Positions 4,128-15,347 of a stretch of DNA of 39,635 nucleotides are shown here, in pieces. A program made the translations under genes and the position numbers. How positions within the stretch are numbered: the first letter of the stretch is position 1; every line of letters starts with the position of its first letter. This stretch comes from an uncultured Methylobacter sp. Its GTDB lineage: Bacteria > Pseudomonadota > Gammaproteobacteria > Methylococcales > Methylomonadaceae. The stretch is taken from positions 1 to 39,635 of the forward strand of contig CAILCX010000081.1 of NCBI GenBank assembly GCA_903832775.1, in the 5' to 3' direction. Under the pieces are notes generated by a model that worked only from the letters and a program-made list of their open reading frames with translations, ran no database searches and was not told the origin of the DNA.

Positions 4128-4452
4128 TTTTAGGCCAATCAGTAAGTTATTAGAAATGGGATAATTTTAACCTTATTCATAAACAAGAGTCATTTATTCT
4201 AAAGCACACGAAAATTGGCTATGCCTCAAGCTCAACTGCCATCGAATAGGTATTTATACGCATTGTCTATCTTTATTCATAATATTAAAATCAATCAGTC
4301 ATAACTGATGTTAAGCGGTACTCCTTCATAATCCCGTTTGCTGCGCCCAACAGCAAAGCTTTTACCTGAGAACCTCATGACCTTGACTCAGATAATATCC
4401 AGCAATGAATCTACCCGATTCAATGGAACAGCATTCTCCTAAAGGAAATTCC

Positions 4453-7400
4453 ATGAGCGCTCACGATCAAGACCTTCCTGTTATTACAGACGACTGGACA
4501 AAACAACTCACAAATCCTCATCGTTTATATGGCCGGGAAGAAGCGGCAAGCATCCTCAATAATACCTTTAATCGCATTTGTTATGGTGAAGGAGAAGTGG
4601 TCCTGATTCCTGGCAACTCAGGGACGGGGAAGACCTCACTGGTTAAAGAACTACAAAATCCGGTAATGAACCGAAATGGTATTTTTCTTCATGGCAAATT
4701 TAACCAATACCAACAAAATATCCCCTATTTTGCGTTCCGTCAGGCATTGACTGAACTTGCCTGCGAATTAGGATCTGAAGAAGACGTCATCCGACAACAA
4801 TGGCAACGCTCACTAAACAAGGCGTTAGGCTCCCTGGGCCAATTATTGCTTAACTTTATTCCAGAATTCAAGAAAGTTCTCGGTCCCCAACCACCGGTAG
4901 CGAAAATCAGTCCCCTAGAGGCAAAATATCGTTTTATCAGTGTCATCCAAAAACTTATGGAAACCTTATGCCGCGCAGAGCATCCTGTCGTTTTATTTAT
5001 AGATGACTGGCAGTGGGCAGACCCTGCTTCTTTGGAACTGCTTAAGCAACTCCAAATCAGCTCCACCCTCCGTTACCTGCTGGTGATTATTCCATACAGG
5101 GACAACGAAATAGACTCTAATCACCCACTGGTTACTATTATTGATGAACTTCGTCATCAACATGTTCCCATCAGCATTATCGAAATCAAAAACCTGAGTC
5201 TAAAAGATGTGCAAACCTGGATAACAGATGTGCTACAACCCTCAGTCGAAAACCCAAAAGGCCTGGCCAAGTTTATCTACCAGCAGACCCGGGGGAATCC
5301 ATTTTTTACTCAAGCCTCTTTGTTATTTCTCAATAACTACAGCTTGCTTAACTTCGACCAGGGCAATAAATGTTGGCGATGGATAAACAAAACTAATGAC
5401 GTTGACAAATTACCCGACTCGATTGCCAATCTTTTTCTCCACCAGTTATTACGTCTGGGCCCAGAAAGCCAAATATTGCTTAGCAAAGCCGCATGTCTGG
5501 GCAACCGCTTCAATCTTGACAACCTGGCTGTAACCTGCAAACTGAACACTAAGCAATGCCTGGCCCTGCTTCTCGACCATTCCAGCATGGTTATACCGAC
5601 TAGCGCTGACGGCTTTAGCAGTGCTTCATCCAGACAAGAAGCCGATCAATGGTTCAGGTTCATCCACGACCAAGTCCAGCAAGCCGCCTATAATTTAATT
5701 CATGTCAATGAGCGGCCTGTTACCCATCTGGAAATTGGCAGACTAATTCTTGCTAGCCTTGATCCGGTTCAACTGAGCCATCGCCTGTTTGAAGTGGTTA
5801 ACCACATTAACCTCGGAAAACTATTGATTATTGATCTCACTGAACAAGTCCAGGTAGTAGAACTGAATGTGGCAGCTGCGCGCAAGGCTTGGACTGCAAC
5901 AGCCTACAAAGAAGCGCTTCAGTATCATCGCTCGGCTGGCTATTTTCTGACTATTCCCGACTTTGGCGAATACCTGTGGAGTAACCACCGTAAACTGGCA
6001 TTGTCACTCTTTAAGGAATGGGCAGAGAATGAGTTTCTCGAAGGGGATGAGCAAGAGGGCAATCTACTCATTAATCAAGTCTTCGTTCATGCCGAAAATG
6101 CCCTTGAAAAAGCGGAAGCGCTCACTGTATTGATCCTCCAGAACACACTTAAGGCCCGTTATCGGGAAGCCATTAACGCTGGCAGACTCGCCTTGGCCGC
6201 ATTTAAAATCTTCCTGCCAGAAGACAATTATGAAGCGGCCTGTGATGAGGAAATCAAGCAAGTACGCAGCATTCTTGAGCAGCGCACAATCGCCTCGCTG
6301 AGCGACTTGCCGGTCATGAGTGATCCTGAAATGCACATGATTGTAAAAATCCTCATTACTATGGGACCGCCTTGTTATCGTTCGCACCAGAAGCTTTGGG
6401 GAGTCATCGTATCTAAAGTGGTCAGCCTTACTCTCAGGTTTGGCAATGTCAAGCAGATAGGTTATAGCCATCCAGCCTTCGCCGGTCTGCTTTGCTGGGT
6501 TGCCAATGATCAGGCCAATGCCTTGGAATTCGGCGAACTCGCCTCTAAACTCATGTCCGAAGTTTTTCATTCGCCTTCCGCCCGAAGCGTCTATGCACTG
6601 ATGATAGGAAGTTCGGTACGGCATTGGCATCACCACCTTACAAAGGGCAGTTCAGATTATGCCGAAGCCTGTGAGATAGGCTTGCAATCAGGCAATTTGC
6701 AATACACCGCTTACGCCCTGGGCCATGATATGTATTGCAAATTTTATAGTGGCTGCCCCTTAGATGCCTTGATAAGAATATCGCAAAAATCCTTAGCCTT
6801 TAGTCGGACACGGTTCAATCAATGGGCTATCGACCTTCTGGAAGGCGGGTTGCGAATATTTTCCCTCCTGTCGATTCCGGATCAGGAAACCCTGGCTTAC
6901 GAATTTCCACAGGAAGATGACTACCTTAAACTGCTTAAGTTACACCAAAATATTCAGGTAGTGTGTATTTACAAGATTATGAAGGCTTTCTCCCTAATGT
7001 TACTGGGTCGATACGACGAAGCCCTGGAAATATCCACTCAAGTACAACCAATTCTATACACCGTGGGCATGCAAGGACTACTGCCCTGGCCGGAATCTGT
7101 AATGACTCGTTTACTCATCTTAACTGCCCTGCCAAAAAATCAAGATCTAAATTTACAGACACAACGCGACATAGAACTGACCGGCAGCCTCGCTCAACTT
7201 CGTCACTGGGCAGATTCCTGCCCGGAAAATTTCGAGCCTCTTTATCAACTGGCCGCCGCAGAACTGGCTCGGCTTGAACTAAGATACGAAGATGCCATGA
7301 TATTTTATGAACAAGCTGTCGCCGGTGCCAAGGACGGAGGCTTTATCCAGTGGGAAGCAATTACAAACGAGCGGATTGCGCGTTTCTGGTCAGAGCAAGG

Positions 7401-10182
7401 TAATATTTGGCTGACTCAAAATTATTGGCAACAGGCCTATAATTGCTATAACCAATGGGGCGCAAAATCAAAACTCTGGGCCATGGAAGTCGAATATCGT
7501 CAGTGGCTAGAGGCCGCGATGCCTTCAGTCTCTGCATCCGGTGACAGCAAAACTAAACAGATACGCACTGACCTTTTGGAAAAACAGATCCAGTTCCTTA
7601 ATGAAGGTGGATTAAAGGATACCAACGCTGACAGGCAACCCATGGCTGAAAGGCAAGCCGTAGAATTTGAAATTGCTACCGAACACCTGCGAGCCGAAGT
7701 CACAGAACGTAAACGTGTGGCAATAAAATTGCAGTTGGCAAAGAATTCAATTGAAGAAGGTTTACTAAATGAACGCTTGCTTATGGCGGCCATTGTTGAA
7801 TCCTCAGAAGACGCCATCATCTGCAGGACCCTGGATGGCATCATCACCAACTGGAACAGAGGCGCTGAAAATATTTTCGGCTACTCGGCAGAGGAGATAC
7901 TAGGGCAATCCATTCTGGTTTTGATTCCTTCTGATCTCCTCAATAAAGAAAAAGACTTGCTTGCCTCTATCCTGCAAGGTAATTCCATTAAGCATTATGA
8001 GACCATCAGACTTTGTAAAGCCGGTAATAAAATAAACGTTTCAATCACTGCCTCACCGATCCGGGATAAGAACGGGCAAATCATCGCCATTTCAAACATT
8101 GCCCACGATATAACAAGCCGAAAAGTTAATGAATCTAATCTTCGCCTTGCAGCCAACGTTTTTACCCATGCACGGGAAGGTATCATGATCACCTCACCGG
8201 ATGGAAAAATCGTGGATGTCAACGAAACCTTCTTGCATATAACGGGCTATAACCGCGACGAAATCCTGGGACAGACTCCTCATATTTTGAGCTCCGGCCG
8301 TTATGACAAGCAATATTACTCCAACATGTGGCGAGATTTAACCGAGAAAGGGCATTGGTATGGTGAAATCTGGAACCGAAAAAAAAATGGCGAGGAATAC
8401 GCTGCCCTGCAAAATATCAGTGTAGTGCGCGACGCTCAGGGCAATATTCAGCAGTTCGTGTCTTTGTTTTCTGATATCACTATGCTAAAAACCCATGAAA
8501 AAGAGTTAGAGCATATCGCTCATTACGATGCGCTGACCGGACTGCCTAATCGCATCCTGCTGGCCGACCGACTGACGATGGGCCTAACACAAACTCAACG
8601 GCGCCAAAAACACTTAGCAGTCGTCTATCTCGACTTGGACGGTTTTAAAGTCATAAATGATAGTTACGGTCACCATATTGGCGATCAGTTACTCATAGAC
8701 ATAGCCTCACGGATGAAACAGGCCTTACGGGAAAGTGACACACTAGCACGCTTGGGCGGAGACGAGTTTGTCGCGATACTGGTTGATCTGGATACTATTG
8801 ATGCCTGTGTACCCATGCTTACCCGTTTGCTGGCATCGGCTTCACTACCAGTTTGTGTCGACAACCTCAGTCTTACCGTCACCGCCAGTCTTGGCGTGAC
8901 GTTCTACCCGCAAGCCGAAGACATTAGCGCAGATCAACTGCTACGCCAGGCAGATCAAGCCATGTATCAAGCCAAATTATCCGGTAAAAATCGTTATCAT
9001 ACCTTCGATGCCCAAATGGATAGAAATGCCCGGGGCCTGCACGAAAGCCTCGAGCGTATCCAGGAAGCCCTGTCAAAACAGGAATTTGTGCTCTATTACC
9101 AGCCTAAAGTAAACATGAGACAGGACAGTATTATTGGATTAGAGGCGCTGATACGCTGGCAACATCCAGAAAAAGGTCTCTTACCGCCACTGGTATTTCT
9201 GCCTTTGATAGAAAATCACTCACTGTCTGTCGAAGTGGGTAATTGGGTACTCAAAACAGTGCTGACCCAGATGGAGCATTGGCGTACTGTCGGAATAAAT
9301 ATTCCGATCAGCGTTAATATCAGCGCACGCCAAATACAGCAGTCAGATTTCGTCGAGCGTTTGCGCACTTTGCTGGCAGCGCACCCTGACATTATGCCCT
9401 GGAACCTGGAACTGGAAGTACTTGAAACCAGTGCGCTGGAAGATTTGAGCCAGGCTACTCGGGTGATCGACGCCTGTAAAGAAATCGGTGTAAATTTCTC
9501 TATGGATGATTTCGGAACCGGTTACTCTTCGCTAACCTATCTGAAACGTCTCCCGATATCGACCATAAAGATCGACCAAAGCTTCGTGCGTGACATTCTT
9601 ACCGACCCAGATGATCTTGCCATTCTGATTGGAGTAATGGGTTTGGCTAATGCCTTCGGTCACCAGGTTGTCGCTGAAGGGGTTGAGTCAGTTGAACACG
9701 GTATATTGCTGCTAAAACTTGGCTGCGAATTGGCCCAAGGTTACAGTATTGCCTATCCAATGCCGCCACAAGAACTGCCCGGTTGGTCGGCAGCCTGGCA
9801 CATTGACCCAAGTTGGGTCGATGTGCCTTCTCTTGACCCCAATGATTTACAACTACTCTTCGCCATCATCAACCAGCGGGCTTGTACCTTGTCCGTCGAA
9901 ACATATCTCAAGGACAATAATAAATCTTCGTTGATACTAGATCCCCACCTGTGTCGCTTCGGCAAATGGCTAAGTGGCGAGGGTCAGGCGCGCTATGGCG
10001 GTCAACCTGCTTTTCAAACCATCACCGTACTGCACGCAAGAGTGCATGCCCTGGCTAAAAAACAGAATGAATACAAAACCAAAGTGCCGGTTCGGCAGTT
10101 AAATACTCAATTAGCCAAACTCAATACCTTACAGAACACCATCTATAAACAAATAAGCATTCTGGAACAAGGTGTACCATAA
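4453..10182 (+). CDS. giant AAA ATPase / helical repeat / PAS-PAS-GGDEF-EAL / CZB-like signalling protein
   Basis: About 1909 residues, no membrane segment. Order: AAA_16-type ATPase with Walker A GNSGTGKT (54-61) and Walker B VVLFIDDWQWAD (179-190); a long helical TPR-like region (about 450-1070); a charged coiled coil; PAS1 (about 1111-1225); PAS2 (about 1231-1350); GGDEF (intact motif 1435-1439, preceded by an RESD inhibitory site five residues upstream); EAL (1564-1566, with DDFGTGYSSL at 1685). The tail resembles the zinc-binding CZB domain: H1832, C1834, FGKW, H1861, H1865. Its usual first His is Gln1808. The ATPase/helical module is usually joined to Ser/Thr kinase and His-kinase domains; here it drives c-di-GMP domains and no kinase domain is present. 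Start chosen at ATG 4453 because AAAGGAAA precedes it; an in-frame ATG at 4405 lacks a good ribosome site and would add 16 residues. Confidence 0.92.
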   Translation: MSAHDQDLPVITDDWTKQLTNPHRLYGREEAASILNNTFNRICYGEGEVVLIPGNSGTGKTSLVKELQNPVMNRNGIFLHGKFNQYQQNIPYFAFRQALTELACELGSEEDVIRQQWQRSLNKALGSLGQLLLNFIPEFKKVLGPQPPVAKISPLEAKYRFISVIQKLMETLCRAEHPVVLFIDDWQWADPASLELLKQLQISSTLRYLLVIIPYRDNEIDSNHPLVTIIDELRHQHVPISIIEIKNLSLKDVQTWITDVLQPSVENPKGLAKFIYQQTRGNPFFTQASLLFLNNYSLLNFDQGNKCWRWINKTNDVDKLPDSIANLFLHQLLRLGPESQILLSKAACLGNRFNLDNLAVTCKLNTKQCLALLLDHSSMVIPTSADGFSSASSRQEADQWFRFIHDQVQQAAYNLIHVNERPVTHLEIGRLILASLDPVQLSHRLFEVVNHINLGKLLIIDLTEQVQVVELNVAAARKAWTATAYKEALQYHRSAGYFLTIPDFGEYLWSNHRKLALSLFKEWAENEFLEGDEQEGNLLINQVFVHAENALEKAEALTVLILQNTLKARYREAINAGRLALAAFKIFLPEDNYEAACDEEIKQVRSILEQRTIASLSDLPVMSDPEMHMIVKILITMGPPCYRSHQKLWGVIVSKVVSLTLRFGNVKQIGYSHPAFAGLLCWVANDQANALEFGELASKLMSEVFHSPSARSVYALMIGSSVRHWHHHLTKGSSDYAEACEIGLQSGNLQYTAYALGHDMYCKFYSGCPLDALIRISQKSLAFSRTRFNQWAIDLLEGGLRIFSLLSIPDQETLAYEFPQEDDYLKLLKLHQNIQVVCIYKIMKAFSLMLLGRYDEALEISTQVQPILYTVGMQGLLPWPESVMTRLLILTALPKNQDLNLQTQRDIELTGSLAQLRHWADSCPENFEPLYQLAAAELARLELRYEDAMIFYEQAVAGAKDGGFIQWEAITNERIARFWSEQGNIWLTQNYWQQAYNCYNQWGAKSKLWAMEVEYRQWLEAAMPSVSASGDSKTKQIRTDLLEKQIQFLNEGGLKDTNADRQPMAERQAVEFEIATEHLRAEVTERKRVAIKLQLAKNSIEEGLLNERLLMAAIVESSEDAIICRTLDGIITNWNRGAENIFGYSAEEILGQSILVLIPSDLLNKEKDLLASILQGNSIKHYETIRLCKAGNKINVSITASPIRDKNGQIIAISNIAHDITSRKVNESNLRLAANVFTHAREGIMITSPDGKIVDVNETFLHITGYNRDEILGQTPHILSSGRYDKQYYSNMWRDLTEKGHWYGEIWNRKKNGEEYAALQNISVVRDAQGNIQQFVSLFSDITMLKTHEKELEHIAHYDALTGLPNRILLADRLTMGLTQTQRRQKHLAVVYLDLDGFKVINDSYGHHIGDQLLIDIASRMKQALRESDTLARLGGDEFVAILVDLDTIDACVPMLTRLLASASLPVCVDNLSLTVTASLGVTFYPQAEDISADQLLRQADQAMYQAKLSGKNRYHTFDAQMDRNARGLHESLERIQEALSKQEFVLYYQPKVNMRQDSIIGLEALIRWQHPEKGLLPPLVFLPLIENHSLSVEVGNWVLKTVLTQMEHWRTVGINIPISVNISARQIQQSDFVERLRTLLAAHPDIMPWNLELEVLETSALEDLSQATRVIDACKEIGVNFSMDDFGTGYSSLTYLKRLPISTIKIDQSFVRDILTDPDDLAILIGVMGLANAFGHQVVAEGVESVEHGILLLKLGCELAQGYSIAYPMPPQELPGWSAAWHIDPSWVDVPSLDPNDLQLLFAIINQRACTLSVETYLKDNNKSSLILDPHLCRFGKWLSGEGQARYGGQPAFQTITVLHARVHALAKKQNEYKTKVPVRQLNTQLAKLNTLQNTIYKQISILEQGVP

Positions 10183-10244: not shown

Positions 10245-11612
10245 TTATAAGCCATAAAATTTGCGCTTACGCCAGAAAGTTGCACGGCTCATACCCAGCA
10301 ATCTTGCCGCTTCCGTAACCCGCTCATTGCTTTGTTGCAAAGCTTTCCGAATAGCCACTGATTCTTCCAATTCCGACAATGGCTCACTCTTCTGAATTGG
10401 CTGATTAATTGCATGAGGTTCTCTAAATTCAGGCGGCAATTCCGACAAACGTAAAACCGTTCCGCGACCAACGGCAAATGCATATTCAACAACATTATGC
10501 AGTTCCCTGATATTGCCAGGCCAGTAGTAATCCAGCAAAACCCGCATCGCTTGAGGCTCTATCTTTTCGATCTTCCTGAAATTGGCCCCATTATGTTGCT
10601 GGATAAAATGCCAAATCAACAAACTGATGTCTTCCCGACGTTCTCGTAACGGCGGCAAAAAAATCGGCACCACTCGCAAGCGGTACATTAAATCCTCACG
10701 GAAACGCCCGCTTTTCACTTCTTCCCTGAGCGATCGGTGTGTTGCAGCGACAATTCGCACATCAACATCAATGGAACGGTCGCCGCCCACCGGAATATAG
10801 TTTCTTTCCTGTATCACTCTGAGCAACTTGGCTTGCAATTCCAGCGGCAATTCAGCTATTTCATCCAGAAACAAGGTTCCGCCCCGCGCCCGTTGAAACA
10901 GCCCACTATGATCTTTAATCGCCCCGGTAAAAGCGCCACGCATATGGCCAAACAATTCGCTTTCCAACAAATTGCTGGATAAGGCCGCGCAATTAATTGC
11001 CAAAAACGGGGCATTTTGTCGGCCACTTAAATCGTGAATGGCTCTGGCAACCAATTCCTTGCCGGAGCCACTCTCACCTCTGACCAAAACGGTAGCTTCG
11101 GTTTCCGCCGCATTCTGAATAATTTGAAATACTGCCTGCATGGCCGGGGAGCGACTGAGGATGCCCTGAAAACTTTGCGGCGTTTCAACCTGAGCTGCAG
11201 GTGAAACAATTTTTGAAACCTGCTCTGTGTTTAAAAAAACCATGCCTATACCGCCTGCAAAAGCTCCGGCCTTGTCCTGAAAAATCTGAACAAAATTTTT
11301 AACTTCGCTGGTATGGCCTTCGGGATGGCTAAACTTTAGCTGCACCTCTTTATTTTGACTGTTTTCGGTAATGGCAAAGTCCTTCGTACAATGTTTGCCG
11401 ACAAGTTCCTCTGACTTTAGTCCCGATAACTGTTCAAGGCCAGGACTCCAATAAAGTATCCGTTGTTTTTTATCGAGCACATAAAATCCCGAACACCCAC
11501 AGCAAGCCAACATCTTTGAAAAAACAGTTGCACTGTCAAATTGCGCTAGCCACAAAATAAAGGATTTGGAAAATGATTCCGACGGTTTTGAATGTATCAT
11601 TATTTGTTTCAT
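10245..11612 (-). CDS. fisR: FisR-like sigma54-dependent activator of sulfide oxidation
   Basis: A 455-residue enhancer-binding protein. The N-terminal PAS-like sensor contains [12 protein letters not shown] (Cys37, 38, 40) and a further Cys75 in GKHC. The central AAA+ domain has Walker A GESGSGKE (179-186) and the sigma54-contact loop GAFTGA (226-231). The C-terminus is a Fis-type helix-turn-helix ([14 protein letters not shown]). FisR of Cupriavidus, a known regulator of this type, senses sulfane sulfur through N-terminal cysteines and activates pdo-sqr genes. The pdo-sqr pair and a sigma54 promoter lie about 1.2 kb away, which supports the same role. I cannot confirm that these cysteines are the FisR ones. 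A GTG at 11615 directly precedes the ATG used here, and neither has a clear ribosome site. A TGTTTCA/TGAAACA palindrome starts 11 bases upstream. Confidence 0.9.
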
Positions 11613-11622
11613 CACTGGTTAA

Positions 11623-11643
11623 TATTGTTTCACTGAAACAATA
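11623..11643. promoter_or_regulatory. palindromic operator upstream of fisR
   Basis: Two perfect 10-base arms, TATTGTTTCA and TGAAACAATA, flank a single C. The same GTTTCA/TGAAAC half-site recurs at least six times in the region upstream of the dioxygenase promoter. The palindrome lies 11 bases before the regulator's start and in the fisR/outer-membrane-protein divergent gap, so it could serve autoregulation, control of the barrel-protein gene, or both. That it is the binding site of the adjacent activator is inferred from the shared sequence. Confidence 0.7.
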
Positions 11644-11793
11644 CATGAATTGCTTTAAAAGCACAAAATACATAACACATGAATAAAAGTCAGATGAGTT
11701 AAAACGCTAATTTTAGCCTAAAATAATTGACAATCAGGTCTCTGATCGGCAAGATAATTATCTAAACTCATATATTTTGTAAGGAAAAAGCTC

Positions 11794-12573
11794 GTGAAAC
11801 CAAATAAAATTAAATCGACTTTACTGAAACCTCATAAATCAAAACTGCTTACAGTTTTGATATCAGGCCTATTGTTGACACCGTCAGTCAACGCAGAAAT
11901 AACACTTGGCTTATTTGCGGGAAAATCATTTGTCGACAACGGCGATTTAAATTTGAAACAAGGTAGCACCAATCTGGATTTTAAGGATGTCAGTTGGGAA
12001 GACAATTCTTTTAAATCCCCAATTTTTTATGGCGCCCGCATTGGTTATTGGTTCAAGGAATCGCCAAACTGGGGCGTATCCGTTGATTTTAGTCATCTGA
12101 AAAACTATCTGATAGATAGTAAAACCGCAGCGGTTAGCGGCGTTAATAACAACGTTCCAGTTAACGGTAGCCAAGTTATTAACACTACCGCCCTTAAAGA
12201 TTTTAATATGTCTCACGGCTTGAACACGCTGACTTTTAACGGTCAATATCGCTGGTTCCCTACTGGCCAGCGAGATAACACCCTGCTCGGTCGCTTACAA
12301 CCCTATACCGGCTTAGGTGCCGGCTTTAGCATTCCCCACGTCGAAGCGACGGTTAATGACATTAAAACTTATGAGTATCAATGGGGAGCAGGCCCGGTAG
12401 TCAATGGTATGTTAGGTTTCAATTATGATATTTACAGCTTCATCTCCGGCTTTGCCGAATACAAATTAACCTATGCCAGCGTGGAAGCTAACTTGAAAGG
12501 TGGTGGCACGATCAATACCGAAACCGTCAATCACCAGTTGATCGTAGGCTTGTCGGCACATTTTGATATTTGA
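11794..12573 (+). CDS. outer-membrane beta-barrel protein
   Basis: A 259-residue exported protein starting at GTG 11794, with AAGGAA seven bases upstream. The signal peptide has a basic N-terminus (KPNKIKS, KPHKSK), a hydrophobic core LLTVLISGLLLTPS and probable cleavage after VNA at about 34. The mature part shows alternating strands with many aromatic and glycine residues (WGVSVDFSHL, YTGLGAGFSI, YEYQWGAGPV, SGFAEYKLTY) and ends HFDI. This fits an eight-stranded OmpA/OmpW-like barrel domain. No specific ligand can be assigned. It sits between the sulfur regulator (divergent) and the sulfide-oxidation genes (same strand). A strong hairpin follows it, so it is probably a separate transcript. 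Its position next to the TGTTTCA palindrome suggests possible co-regulation with sulfur oxidation. Confidence 0.8.
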   Translation: MKPNKIKSTLLKPHKSKLLTVLISGLLLTPSVNAEITLGLFAGKSFVDNGDLNLKQGSTNLDFKDVSWEDNSFKSPIFYGARIGYWFKESPNWGVSVDFSHLKNYLIDSKTAAVSGVNNNVPVNGSQVINTTALKDFNMSHGLNTLTFNGQYRWFPTGQRDNTLLGRLQPYTGLGAGFSIPHVEATVNDIKTYEYQWGAGPVVNGMLGFNYDIYSFISGFAEYKLTYASVEANLKGGGTINTETVNHQLIVGLSAHFDI

Positions 12574-12585
12574 TCCCGATAATAA

Positions 12586-12621
12586 TGTAGGGTGTCTAAA
12601 TCCACGCTTAAACACCCTACA
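12586..12621 (+). terminator. hairpin after the barrel-protein gene
   Basis: A perfect 10-base stem, TGTAGGGTGT with ACACCCTACA, encloses a 16-base loop and is followed by GTTTTAATCTT. It starts 13 bases after the stop codon and fits an intrinsic terminator, though the T tract is interrupted. It separates the barrel gene from the operator array that follows. Confidence 0.6.
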
Positions 12622-12652
12622 GTTTTAATCTTAACTTTCTGAACCACCCCGC

Positions 12653-12718
12653 TTGTTTCATTCACGTTTCATGAAACAAAAAAGCACTTCACTGAAACAT
12701 TAGTGAAACACTGAAACA
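12653..12718 (+). promoter_or_regulatory. upstream activator array for the sulfide-oxidation promoter
   Basis: At least six half-sites lie within 66 bases: GTTTCA at 12655-12660 and 12666-12671, and TGAAAC at 12672-12677, 12693-12698, 12704-12709 and 12712-12717. Sites 12666-12677 join into a perfect 12-base palindrome, GTTTCATGAAAC. The array lies about 55-120 bases upstream of the -24 element, a normal place for a sigma54 enhancer. The half-site matches the palindrome before the regulator gene. Binding by the FisR-like protein is inferred. Confidence 0.75.
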
Positions 12719-12773
12719 AAACAACAAGCCCTGACGATTTCCTATAACCTTGAAAAGGCTGTGTTTACAAGTT

Positions 12774-12789
12774 TGGCACAAGGCTTGCT
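12774..12789 (+). promoter_or_regulatory. sigma54 (-24/-12) promoter of the pdo-sqr genes
   Basis: TGGCAC (12774-12779), five bases, then TTGCT (12785-12789). The GG and GC doublets are exactly 12 bases apart, matching the sigma54 consensus closely. The predicted transcript start is near 12800, leaving a leader of about 30 bases with GGAGAG just before the dioxygenase ATG. The enhancer array upstream and the sigma54 activator gene nearby agree with it. Confidence 0.88.
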
Positions 12790-12828
12790 TAATCCTAATT
12801 ATAACAAACACAAAACAGGAGAGACACC

Positions 12829-13923
12829 ATGCTATTCAAACAATTATTTGATCAGGAAACCTGGACTTACACTTATTTAATTGCTGACCCCATCAGCAAA
12901 GACGCGGTACTTATCGATCCGGTCAACACACATATTGATGAGTATATCGCCTTGCTTGAAACGCACGGTTTAACTTTAAAATACACACTGGAAACGCATG
13001 TTCATGCCGACCATATTACAGCCGGCGGTTTGTTACGCCAACGCTTGGGTGCACAAACCGGTGTCAGCCAGCTTTGTGGTGCTGAAACAGCCGACATCCA
13101 AATTCAGGACGGTGATGTTTTCGAATTCGCAGGCAGCGAATCAATTAAGGTAATAGCAACACCAGGCCACACACCCGGCAGTATTTCTTTTTTATGGCGT
13201 GACCGCTTGTTTTCGGGTGATGCATTGCTGATCGGTGGTTGCGGACGCACTGATTTTCAAGGTGGCAACGCCGGTGCGCAATATGACGGTATCACGCAAC
13301 GTCTATTTACCCTGCCGGATGAAACACTGGTTTATCCAGGCCATGATTATCAACAACGCTGGGTGAGCAGCATCATGCAAGAGCGTACCACCAATCCGCG
13401 TCTGGCCGGAAAATCACGGGAACAGTTCATCGAAATTATGAATAACCTGAATTTACCAAAACCTCGTTTGATTGACGAAGCGGTTCCCGCCAACCGTTAT
13501 TGCGGCCTGGATGAGAACGAACGTCAAGATGCAGTAGCGTTGCGCGACGAAACTCAACCCTTGCGTGTCACCACAAAAACCGAGGATCTGGTAACGGCTG
13601 CCAAACAACACATCACTGAAATTGATGTTGCGAAAACAAAACAATTCCTTGCTGAAGGGCAGATGATCTTGATCGATACCCGCGAAGAAAGCGAATACGC
13701 TGCCGGACATATAGACAATGCAGTTTTGCTACCGCGAGGCGTACTGGAATTCAAGATCGGTAAACTACCCGAACTGGCGGATAAATCCAAAGGTATCATT
13801 ATTTATTGTCGTACTGGCGGTCGTTCTGCAATGGCGACTCAGACTCTGCAACAATTGGGGTACACCAATGTCCTGTCCATGGCGGGCGGTTTTGAAGCCT
13901 GGAAAGCCAACCTATCCTCTTAA
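12829..13923 (+). CDS. persulfide dioxygenase-rhodanese fusion
   Basis: A 364-residue two-domain enzyme. The N-terminal metallo-beta-lactamase fold has the ETHE1-type metal motif THVHADH (His57, His59, Asp61, His62), ATPGHTPGS and FSGDALLIGGCGRTDF. This identifies the single-iron persulfide dioxygenase that oxidises glutathione persulfide to sulfite. The C-terminal rhodanese domain (about 265-360) has IDTREESEYAAGHI and active-site Cys327 in YCRTGGRS, and would pass sulfane sulfur between acceptors, for example to form thiosulfate. A good ribosome site (AGGAGAG) precedes the ATG. It is the first gene behind the sigma54 promoter and is followed by SQR after 170 bases, so the product of SQR is the likely substrate. 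The protein is cytoplasmic, with no signal peptide. Confidence 0.94.
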   Translation: MLFKQLFDQETWTYTYLIADPISKDAVLIDPVNTHIDEYIALLETHGLTLKYTLETHVHADHITAGGLLRQRLGAQTGVSQLCGAETADIQIQDGDVFEFAGSESIKVIATPGHTPGSISFLWRDRLFSGDALLIGGCGRTDFQGGNAGAQYDGITQRLFTLPDETLVYPGHDYQQRWVSSIMQERTTNPRLAGKSREQFIEIMNNLNLPKPRLIDEAVPANRYCGLDENERQDAVALRDETQPLRVTTKTEDLVTAAKQHITEIDVAKTKQFLAEGQMILIDTREESEYAAGHIDNAVLLPRGVLEFKIGKLPELADKSKGIIIYCRTGGRSAMATQTLQQLGYTNVLSMAGGFEAWKANLSS

Positions 13924-14093: not shown

Positions 14094-15347
14094 ATGAGCA
14101 ATCAACACCACACCTTACTTATCATCGGAGGCGGCGCAGCAGGCGTTTCCGTAGCCAACAATATGCGTCGTCAAAATGTCACGATTGACATGGCCATTAT
14201 AGAACCTTCAGAAAAGCATTATTATCAGCCCGGTTTTACCATTATTGGCGGCGGCGCTTATACAATGAAAAAAACCACCCGCAACGAAGCCGATTTAATC
14301 CATCCCAGTGTTAAATGGATTAAAGACTTTGCCGAATCTTTTCAGCCCAATGACAACAGCATCACCTTACGTTCAGGCGACACTATCACTTATGACTATC
14401 TTGTAGTCTGTCCCGGCTTGCAACTGGATTGGGACAAAATTGAAGGCTTGAAAGAAACAATCGGTAAAAACAATGTATGCAGCAATTATTCTGCCGACAC
14501 TGTTGAATATACTTGGGAATGCATACAAAACCTGCAATCCGGCACCGCTTTATTCACGCAACCACCCATGCCAATTAAATGTGCCGGCGCGCCACAAAAA
14601 ATCATGTATCTAGCCGCAGATCGCTTCCGCAAGAAACGCATTCTGGACAAAATGAACATTGAATTTTGCAATGCTGGCCCGGTGTTGTTCGGTATTCCCT
14701 TTTTCGCCAAAGCCTTGCATAAAGTCGTAGCCGGCTATGGCATTAAAACCAATTTCAACCACAATCTGGTAGCGATTGACGGCCCTGCAAAGACCGCCAT
14801 TTTTGAAACCACCGACGCCGATGGCAAAAAACAACGGGTCAGCAAAGCTTTTGACATGATTCATGTCACGCCACCACAAAGCGCCCCGGACTTTATCAAG
14901 AAAAGCCCCTTGGCCAATGCCGCTGGCTGGGTCGATGTTAATGACAAAACACTGCAGCACAATAAATACACCAACATTTTTGGTTTGGGTGATGCGACTT
15001 CAACACCCAATGCCAAAACCGCAGCGGCGGTACGCAAACAGGTGCCGGTCCTGGTTGACAACATTCTGAACCTGATGAATGCCAAAGCCGTTGAAGAAAA
15101 ATATGATGGTTATGGCTCCTGCCCGCTCACCACGTCTTTAAGCACGGTGATGTTGGCAGAGTTTGCTTATGGCGGCAAAGTTACGCCGTCGTTTCCCTGG
15201 TTAGATCCACGAAAAAACCTGTTTATCTGGTGGATAGGCAAAATAGCCGGCTTCCCCTGGATGTACTGGCATTTAATGATCAAAGGTTACCGTATCGATA
15301 TTCCGCACATGGAAGGTTATGCAAAACGTTTTACAAGTGAAGAATAA
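14094..15347 (+). CDS. sqr: sulfide:quinone oxidoreductase, type II
   Basis: A 417-residue flavoprotein that oxidises sulfide to persulfide and passes electrons to the quinone pool at the inner membrane. The FAD-binding motif GGGAAG is at 12-17. The segment IKCAGAPQKIMYL (Cys163) and YGSCPLTTS (Cys343) match the two redox cysteines of mitochondrial-type SQR. The C-terminus is hydrophobic and aromatic (FIWWIGKIAGFPWMYWHLM), as expected for membrane attachment in this type. A further Cys129 (NNVCSNY) is present. AGAGGA lies 9 bases before the ATG. The gene follows the persulfide dioxygenase on the same strand with no terminator seen between them, so both probably depend on the sigma54 promoter. 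Together they form a complete sulfide detoxification or oxidation pair. Confidence 0.95.
   Translation: MSNQHHTLLIIGGGAAGVSVANNMRRQNVTIDMAIIEPSEKHYYQPGFTIIGGGAYTMKKTTRNEADLIHPSVKWIKDFAESFQPNDNSITLRSGDTITYDYLVVCPGLQLDWDKIEGLKETIGKNNVCSNYSADTVEYTWECIQNLQSGTALFTQPPMPIKCAGAPQKIMYLAADRFRKKRILDKMNIEFCNAGPVLFGIPFFAKALHKVVAGYGIKTNFNHNLVAIDGPAKTAIFETTDADGKKQRVSKAFDMIHVTPPQSAPDFIKKSPLANAAGWVDVNDKTLQHNKYTNIFGLGDATSTPNAKTAAAVRKQVPVLVDNILNLMNAKAVEEKYDGYGSCPLTTSLSTVMLAEFAYGGKVTPSFPWLDPRKNLFIWWIGKIAGFPWMYWHLMIKGYRIDIPHMEGYAKRFTSEE

Follow-up and report, generated by a model that had tools for sequence, protein, structure and literature searches.

A conserved TGAAACA word as the predicted FisR operator of a probable sigma54-dependent sulfide detoxification circuit in Methylobacter and its relatives

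We analysed a 39,635-nucleotide stretch of DNA from an uncultured Methylobacter sp. (contig CAILCX010000081.1 of assembly GCA_903832775.1; hereafter the window), in which fisR, encoding a sigma54 enhancer-binding activator, lies divergent from pdo and sqr, the genes for a persulfide dioxygenase-rhodanese fusion and a sulfide:quinone oxidoreductase-like protein, with an open reading frame (ORF) of 259 amino acids (aa) between them. With a probability that we put at about 0.87, the locus is a FisR-sigma54-pdo-sqr circuit for the detoxification of sulfide and sulfane sulfur, in which the word TGAAACA (inverted, TGTTTCA) would be read by the helix-turn-helix (HTH) of FisR. The word is very probably the docking site of FisR because it is kept in many relatives that keep FisR. 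Circuits of this kind are already known from Cupriavidus and Acinetobacter. The features on which the argument depends are the following.

10245..11612, minus strand: fisR, sigma54 enhancer-binding activator of 455 aa; ATG at 11612, with a GTG at 11615 also in frame
11208..11612, minus strand: N-terminal PAS sensor domain, residues about 1-135 (model, fold matches, Pfam)
11388..11390, minus strand: codon of Cys75, the sensor domain's sole well-conserved Cys (row counts in homologs)
10260..10364, minus strand: Fis-type HTH, residues 417-451, including the recognition helix (invariant residues in 102 rows)
11606..11611, no strand: GTTTCA coinciding with the fisR start codon (ATG AAA C; frame check), not counted as operator
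11623..11643, no strand: 21-base-pair (bp) palindrome TATTGTTTCACTGAAACAATA, putative site for a FisR dimer, with a likely role in autoregulation (sequence, genus conservation)
12655..12717, no strand: array of six exact half-sites, proposed FisR upstream activating sequence; GTTTCA starts at 12655 and 12666, TGAAAC at 12672, 12693, 12704 and 12712
12774..12789, plus strand: -24/-12 promoter TGGCACAAGGCTTGCT, an exact TGGCAC-N5-TTGC
12829..13923, plus strand: pdo, persulfide dioxygenase-rhodanese fusion of 364 aa (Pfam Lactamase_B and Rhodanese; PDB relatives BpPRF and ETHE1)
14094..15347, plus strand: sqr, sulfide:quinone oxidoreductase-like, 417 aa (Pfam Pyr_redox_2; best NCBIfam match the type III SQR model, with a score under its cut-off)

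The palindrome starts 11 bp from the fisR start codon, and its two 10-base arms, with one base between them, are 100% complementary. Half-sites (GTTTCA or TGAAAC) lie at both ends of the fisR-pdo interval. Six fall in the 200 bp 5' of pdo against 0.38 expected, a count equalled in 0 of 2000 dinucleotide shuffles, and three fall in the 60 bp at fisR against 0.11 expected, which 0.0005 of shuffles equal. One of the latter three, the GTTTCA at 11606-11611, was rejected as an operator site, being the fisR start codon itself and not independent evidence. An earlier note on this DNA had described a FisR-like activator, a 21-base palindrome near its start and a near-perfect -24/-12 promoter, and all three are borne out, the activator with PAS, AAA+ and Fis-type HTH domains (Pfam PAS_9, Sigma54_activat at 3.3e-70, and HTH_8). 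Its array of half-sites stands as the six exact sites upstream of pdo. The half-site may also resemble PrpR sites.

To follow the word beyond the window we examined 280-bp stretches at 104 fisR loci. Twenty-two came from the genus, 66 from the rest of the family (fetched of the 88 FisR-grade matches listed, at least 372 bits), 14 from other families of the order (of 28 FisR-grade matches; one of the 14, L179, from a separate search) and 2 from other orders; L197 and L201, which repeat L156 and L157, are not counted, nor is L174, a fisR remnant. These loci hold 313 half-sites against 23.7 expected (standard deviation 4.9; maximum of 200 shuffles, 36), an enrichment of about 13-fold over dinucleotide shuffles. 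The start codon supplies a half-site at 61 of them; with such sites removed 246 half-sites stay, and 77 of the 104 loci still carry at least two. TGAAAC is followed by A in 78% of 302 sites, which gives TGAAACA, the extended half-site of the earlier note. Half-sites are found beside fisR also where other genes come first.

Within the genus, 22 of 23 genomes encode a full-length FisR ortholog, the exception (G018) being 70% complete. In 18 of the 21 fetched relatives pdo or sqr is divergent from fisR, about 160-470 bp away, and in the remaining three the contig end is reached within about 0.4-1.1 kilobases (kb). Among the linked genus loci, window included, 17 of 18 have at least two half-sites and 18 of 18 a -24/-12 promoter; the half-sites of the sole miss, L044, lie just past the 320 bp scanned. 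There are 22 copies of the palindrome core, TGTTTCANTGAAAC, in 19 of the 23 genomes, against 3 for the reversed control, and 18 of the 22 are at fisR or pdo. The others are on G015:C51, G016:C16, G016:C56 and G017:C736; at the last of these (L178) the word and TGGCACAAGATTCGC lie upstream of a gene, a possible further FisR target. A separate scan of 80 loci, start-codon sites included, found at least two half-sites at 50. It included a FisR homolog in a deltaproteobacterial metagenome-assembled genome (MAG; L265), with three half-sites and pdo 319 bp away, and two myxococcal FisR homologs (L331 and L337), with none.

The word also accompanies pdo when the two genes are apart. At five loci with 3.7-6.1 kb between fisR and pdo (L108, L110, L115, L116 and L120), pdo is equipped separately with half-sites and a -24/-12 promoter; L112 (4.6 kb), L113 and L117 depart from this pattern. 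We then picked 28 genomes in which fisR had no array, pdo was not adjacent or pdo had no array, including G052, G060 and G025, chosen despite or because of an earlier array-less pdo. They yielded 28 pdo loci in 27 genomes, of which 22 have at least two half-sites, 24 a -24/-12 promoter and 21 both; arrays are present at 22 of 25 once L209, L210 and L212, where fisR is less than 700 bp away, are set aside. In one genome (G010; L174 and L034) a pdo with intact operator and -24/-12 promoter stands beside a fisR remnant, with an intact fisR on another contig.

Genomes without FisR provided the control. Of 53 family genomes with no FisR match at 1e-90 we used 39, excluding 13 less than 90% complete and G157 at 90%. 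pdo was present in 36 of the 39; of 37 loci, we retrieved the best 30. With identical patterns, only 2 of the 30 showed at least two half-sites and 1 of the 30 a -24/-12 promoter. Array presence differs between the pdo loci of FisR and FisR-less genomes with a Fisher p of 1.7e-8; with full-length PDOs only (16 of the 30 loci matched the dioxygenase part alone and may be paralogs), FisR-less genomes have arrays at 2 of 14 (p 1.4e-4), and within genus g24 arrays are at 5 of 6 loci with FisR and 0 of 3 without (p 0.048), all of these being optimistic values because related genomes are not independent and the tests ignore relatedness.

These data bear on whether the word might belong to a different regulator that acts on these genes (a repressor or nucleoid protein), with FisR merely nearby. 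Such a regulator would account for the arrays that persist at L338 and L344, in genomes scored FisR-less (99% and 97% complete drafts, the score being one protein search). It would not lead one to expect that word and -24/-12 promoter are mostly missing where FisR is missing, even within genus g24, or that the word stays beside fisR where other genes follow first. Moreover, a frozen recognition helix parallels the frozen word: S442, R443, T445, W447 and R448 are invariant in 102 of 102 FisR rows, and mean column conservation is 0.72 in the HTH and 0.85 in the AAA+ domain, against 0.48 in the sensor. The half-sites of the genus, 61-203 bp upstream of TGGC, are placed to suit an enhancer-binding protein. 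We regard another regulator as very unlikely and retain FisR as the predicted reader of the word.

The spacing of the half-sites follows the DNA helix. Across 79 non-redundant arrays, the distances between direct repeats have maxima at 11-12, 19-21, 31-33 and 40 bp, and those of inverted pairs at 7, 17-19, 28 and 38-39 bp. Rayleigh R at 10.5 bp is 0.55 for 141 direct pairs and 0.65 for 136 inverted pairs, pairs within one array being non-independent; therefore, most half-sites lie on one face of the helix. This helical spacing would be compatible with cooperative binding of FisR. It also speaks to the suspicion that the array is a functionless by-product of shared ancestry or A+T-rich composition. 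Half-sites are indeed short, some are coding, as the start codons show, and their genome-wide counts are ordinary. Yet their 13-fold enrichment, their presence in two orders, their phasing and their separate arrays at pdo genes distant from fisR are such that a by-product, already disfavoured, deserves next to no credence. Comparison of sequences supports the operator word, the promoter, the connection of both with FisR, and the helical phasing.

Besides the optimistic p values and the two arrays in FisR-less genomes, several observations weigh against the assignment of the word to FisR. With start-codon sites removed, no more than one half-site lies beside fisR at 27 of the 104 loci; in the genomes of 21 of those 27 poor loci, a separate pdo carries at least two. 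In the separate scan, where start-codon sites are counted, 30 of the 80 loci have fewer than two upstream of fisR. Fewer than two are also found at 6 of the 28 pdo loci of FisR genomes (L205, L209, L210, L212, L220 and L228). Off the main phase are 8-bp direct repeats (10 of 141 pairs) and 14-bp outward pairs (10 of 15). The pdo-side palindrome of the window (12666-12677) has a zero-base spacer, the sole case among the arrays examined, in which 1 base is usual. Finally, GTTTCA-N0-3-TGAAAC occurs genome-wide at 2 places, both in the window, against 3 per strand for the reversed control, and TGTTTCANTGAAACA with at most one mismatch at 1 place, against 3 per strand. We rejected the genome-wide count as evidence, as it is no higher than that of reversed controls; the weight therefore rests on position and conservation.

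The earlier note had called the circuit self-contained, which holds only in the sense that no closely spaced inverted pair of half-sites exists elsewhere in this genome beyond the window's two. It had also suggested scanning the genome for the word at other -24/-12 promoters. Exact TGGCAC-N5-TTGC occurs eight times, the pdo promoter included; among the seven sites examined (L082 gave no forward match), only the pdo promoter is preceded within 250 bp by three or more half-sites. The six others yielded no further FisR target with an array, L083 having two scattered half-sites. Tandem TGAAAC-N4-6-TGAAAC pairs number seven in the genome, one of them inside the fisR coding sequence (TGAAAC-N6-TGAAAC at 11202-11219) and others on C4, C40, C113 and C158.

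A FisR locus known from experiments carries the same word. The FisR of A. baumannii (A1S_1707) drives A1S_1708-1711, an operon that is sulfide-induced and FisR-dependent, according to passages of PMC7315123. Two A. baumannii fisR-pdo gaps (L252, whose 3.66-Mb record is labelled a plasmid, and L253) contain GTTTCAcaatcGTTTCAtTGAAACatacttgaGTTTCA and then the -24/-12 promoter TGGCATcttatTTGC, the word taking the form GTTTCAcaatcGTTTCAtTGAAAC with short spacings like those of the window. From gene order rather than locus tags, we infer that these gaps correspond to A1S_1707-1708. The two systems share a sigma54 activator divergent from a pdo-sqr-tauE operon, with the word at its locus; they differ in the sensor domain, that of the A. 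baumannii protein being very unlike the window's, and in that no ORF separates fisR from pdo in A. baumannii. Plasmid searches aimed at beta-proteobacterial FisR led to L255 and L256, from which the fisR-pdo pair is absent. For Cupriavidus pinatubonensis JMP134, Li et al. reportedly found in 2017 that FisR with sigma54 activates sulfide-oxidising genes, a likeness in control. The operator proposed in the earlier note, TGTTTCA paired with TGAAACA, is thus supported by comparison across genus, family, order, separated pdo loci, FisR-less genomes and A. baumannii. Neither a FisR operator nor its phasing, nor its absence where FisR is absent, was found in the open-licence literature searched; Li et al. 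2017, outside that scope, may report a site.

What FisR senses is a different matter from where it binds. The sensor of the window's FisR is modelled as a PAS fold (mean pLDDT 85.6), its PDB fold matches are mostly PAS/LOV domains at a modest TM of about 0.5, and Pfam detects PAS in 35 of 46 homologs. Its one well-conserved cysteine, Cys75, is Cys in 86 of 97 rows and in at least 90% of another set of 46 rows. It comes after GK in the PAS sequence (the GKxC position) and may be the counterpart of the reactive LOV cysteine. A PAS sensor with one such cysteine could serve a FisR that binds the word and responds not to sulfide or sulfane sulfur but, for instance, to redox state or to a cofactor of the PAS domain. 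The A. baumannii protein is without the regulatory cysteines shown in Cupriavidus, its sensing mode being called unclear in the passages of PMC7315123 that treat it, and FisR proteins with no sensor exist. Against this, the targets are persulfide- and sulfide-oxidising enzymes, and the A. baumannii operon is induced by sulfide and dependent on FisR (PMC7315123). Another signal seems unlikely to us, if worth bearing in mind, and reactive sulfur remains the signal that we favour.

Some relatives have dispensed with the sensor altogether. In nine g14 and four g9 genomes the FisR match begins at about residue 117-145, the open frames being 311-380 aa long. The tree puts L152-154 and L164/L172 into separate clades, the latter joining the full-length L144; the sensor was therefore lost at least twice. 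Sensor-less FisR is seen at L152-L154, L164 and L172 (genera g14 and g9) and at L254, on an A. junii plasmid (327 aa). Word and -24/-12 promoter are kept beside the sensor-less fisR at five of these six loci; L153 has no adjacent word, and the separate pdo of the same genome (L227) carries it. Activators without a regulatory domain, such as PspF, are familiar, and it is these that the sensor-less variants of relatives resemble, while the window's FisR retains its sensor. Tentatively, and at slightly less than even odds, we suggest a fixed DNA code with a disposable sensor: one helically phased word would have been kept as a hexamer scaffold across at least two gammaproteobacterial orders, appearing also in the deltaproteobacterial MAG, while the PAS sensor drifted down to one conserved cysteine and was deleted at least twice, leaving sensor-less FisR proteins to be switched otherwise.

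The mechanism that we infer comprises FisR binding, a hexamer scaffold, autorepression and sulfur as the signal. The six half-sites, 62-119 bp upstream of TGGC, would serve as an enhancer for the assembly of FisR, probably from three dimers that together form the active AAA+ hexamer. Bound there, FisR would reach RNA polymerase-sigma54 by looping; ATP hydrolysis would open the promoter at TGGCAC-N5-TTGC, and PDO and SQR would be made, with the PAS domain gating activation on reactive sulfur. At the palindrome near the fisR start, FisR would lower expression of its own gene. The figure of three dimers is suggested by the precedent of E. coli NorR, for which three enhancer sites are required as a hexamer scaffold (PMC2941729). 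NorR is likewise an enhancer-binding protein concerned with detoxifying a reactive small molecule; its sensor is a GAF domain, whereas that of the window's FisR is PAS, and the NCBIfam NorR model scores this FisR at 312 against a cut-off of 476.

Two further features lie between fisR and the array.

11794..12573, plus strand: 259-aa ORF whose start looks by eye like a signal peptide; probable insertion between fisR and pdo
12586..12621, no strand: hairpin 3' of the inserted ORF, classed as terminator-like on the minus strand

The ORF has no match in Pfam or NCBIfam and none in the PDB better than E 0.16. It is found in 11 of 151 family genomes, its own included, and in 0 of 11 other genus members in that sample; the fisR-pdo gaps of the nearest relatives, G009 and G019 (outside the sample), are without it. 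Alignment of the pdo-side array to the fisR-pdo gap of G019 (L035) scores 167, and the highest score in 100 shuffles is 41. Because of this alignment, the patchy distribution and the ORF-free gaps, the ORF looks like a later arrival that split fisR from pdo, and the pdo-side array probably predates it. The G019 gap holds a fisR-side site and the pdo-side array together. That the ORF cut one operator into the window's two clusters was not established, since on the fisR side the alignment with L035 does not outscore shuffles (44 vs 45) and that with L032 does so only slightly (50 vs 42). Membership of the ORF in the regulon was rejected: no clear -24/-12 promoter precedes it in the window, none lies within 250 bp upstream of 10 homologs, and half-sites there are scarce (six homologs lack them, three carry a single one, and at L250 there are two, separated by 126 bp). 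In G147 (L250) the homolog adjoins the 3' end of a fisR copy.

Adjoining fisR on its other side, the window encodes at 4405-10182 a 1925-aa protein that looks, by eye, like an AAA ATPase carrying PAS, GGDEF and EAL-like domains. In other genera (L110, L112, L115, L116, L120 and L128), fisR is found at a more extensive cluster of sulfur-related genes, variable in composition, which by their translations include small secreted or lipoprotein-like, cytochrome c peroxidase-like, SoxB-like and YeeE-like proteins, pdo and sqr.

In conclusion, our comparison yields a predictive FisR operator, TGTTTCA-N-TGAAACA plus phased half-sites, followed by TGGCAY-N5-TTGC, with which the FisR regulon would become readable from sequence in methanotrophs and Acinetobacter. 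Methanotrophs encounter sulfide in many environments, and its effects on them are called virtually unknown in the part of PMC10205796 that addresses them. The operator would make testable how FisR senses sulfur without the Cupriavidus cysteines and how a FisR that has lost its sensor is controlled.

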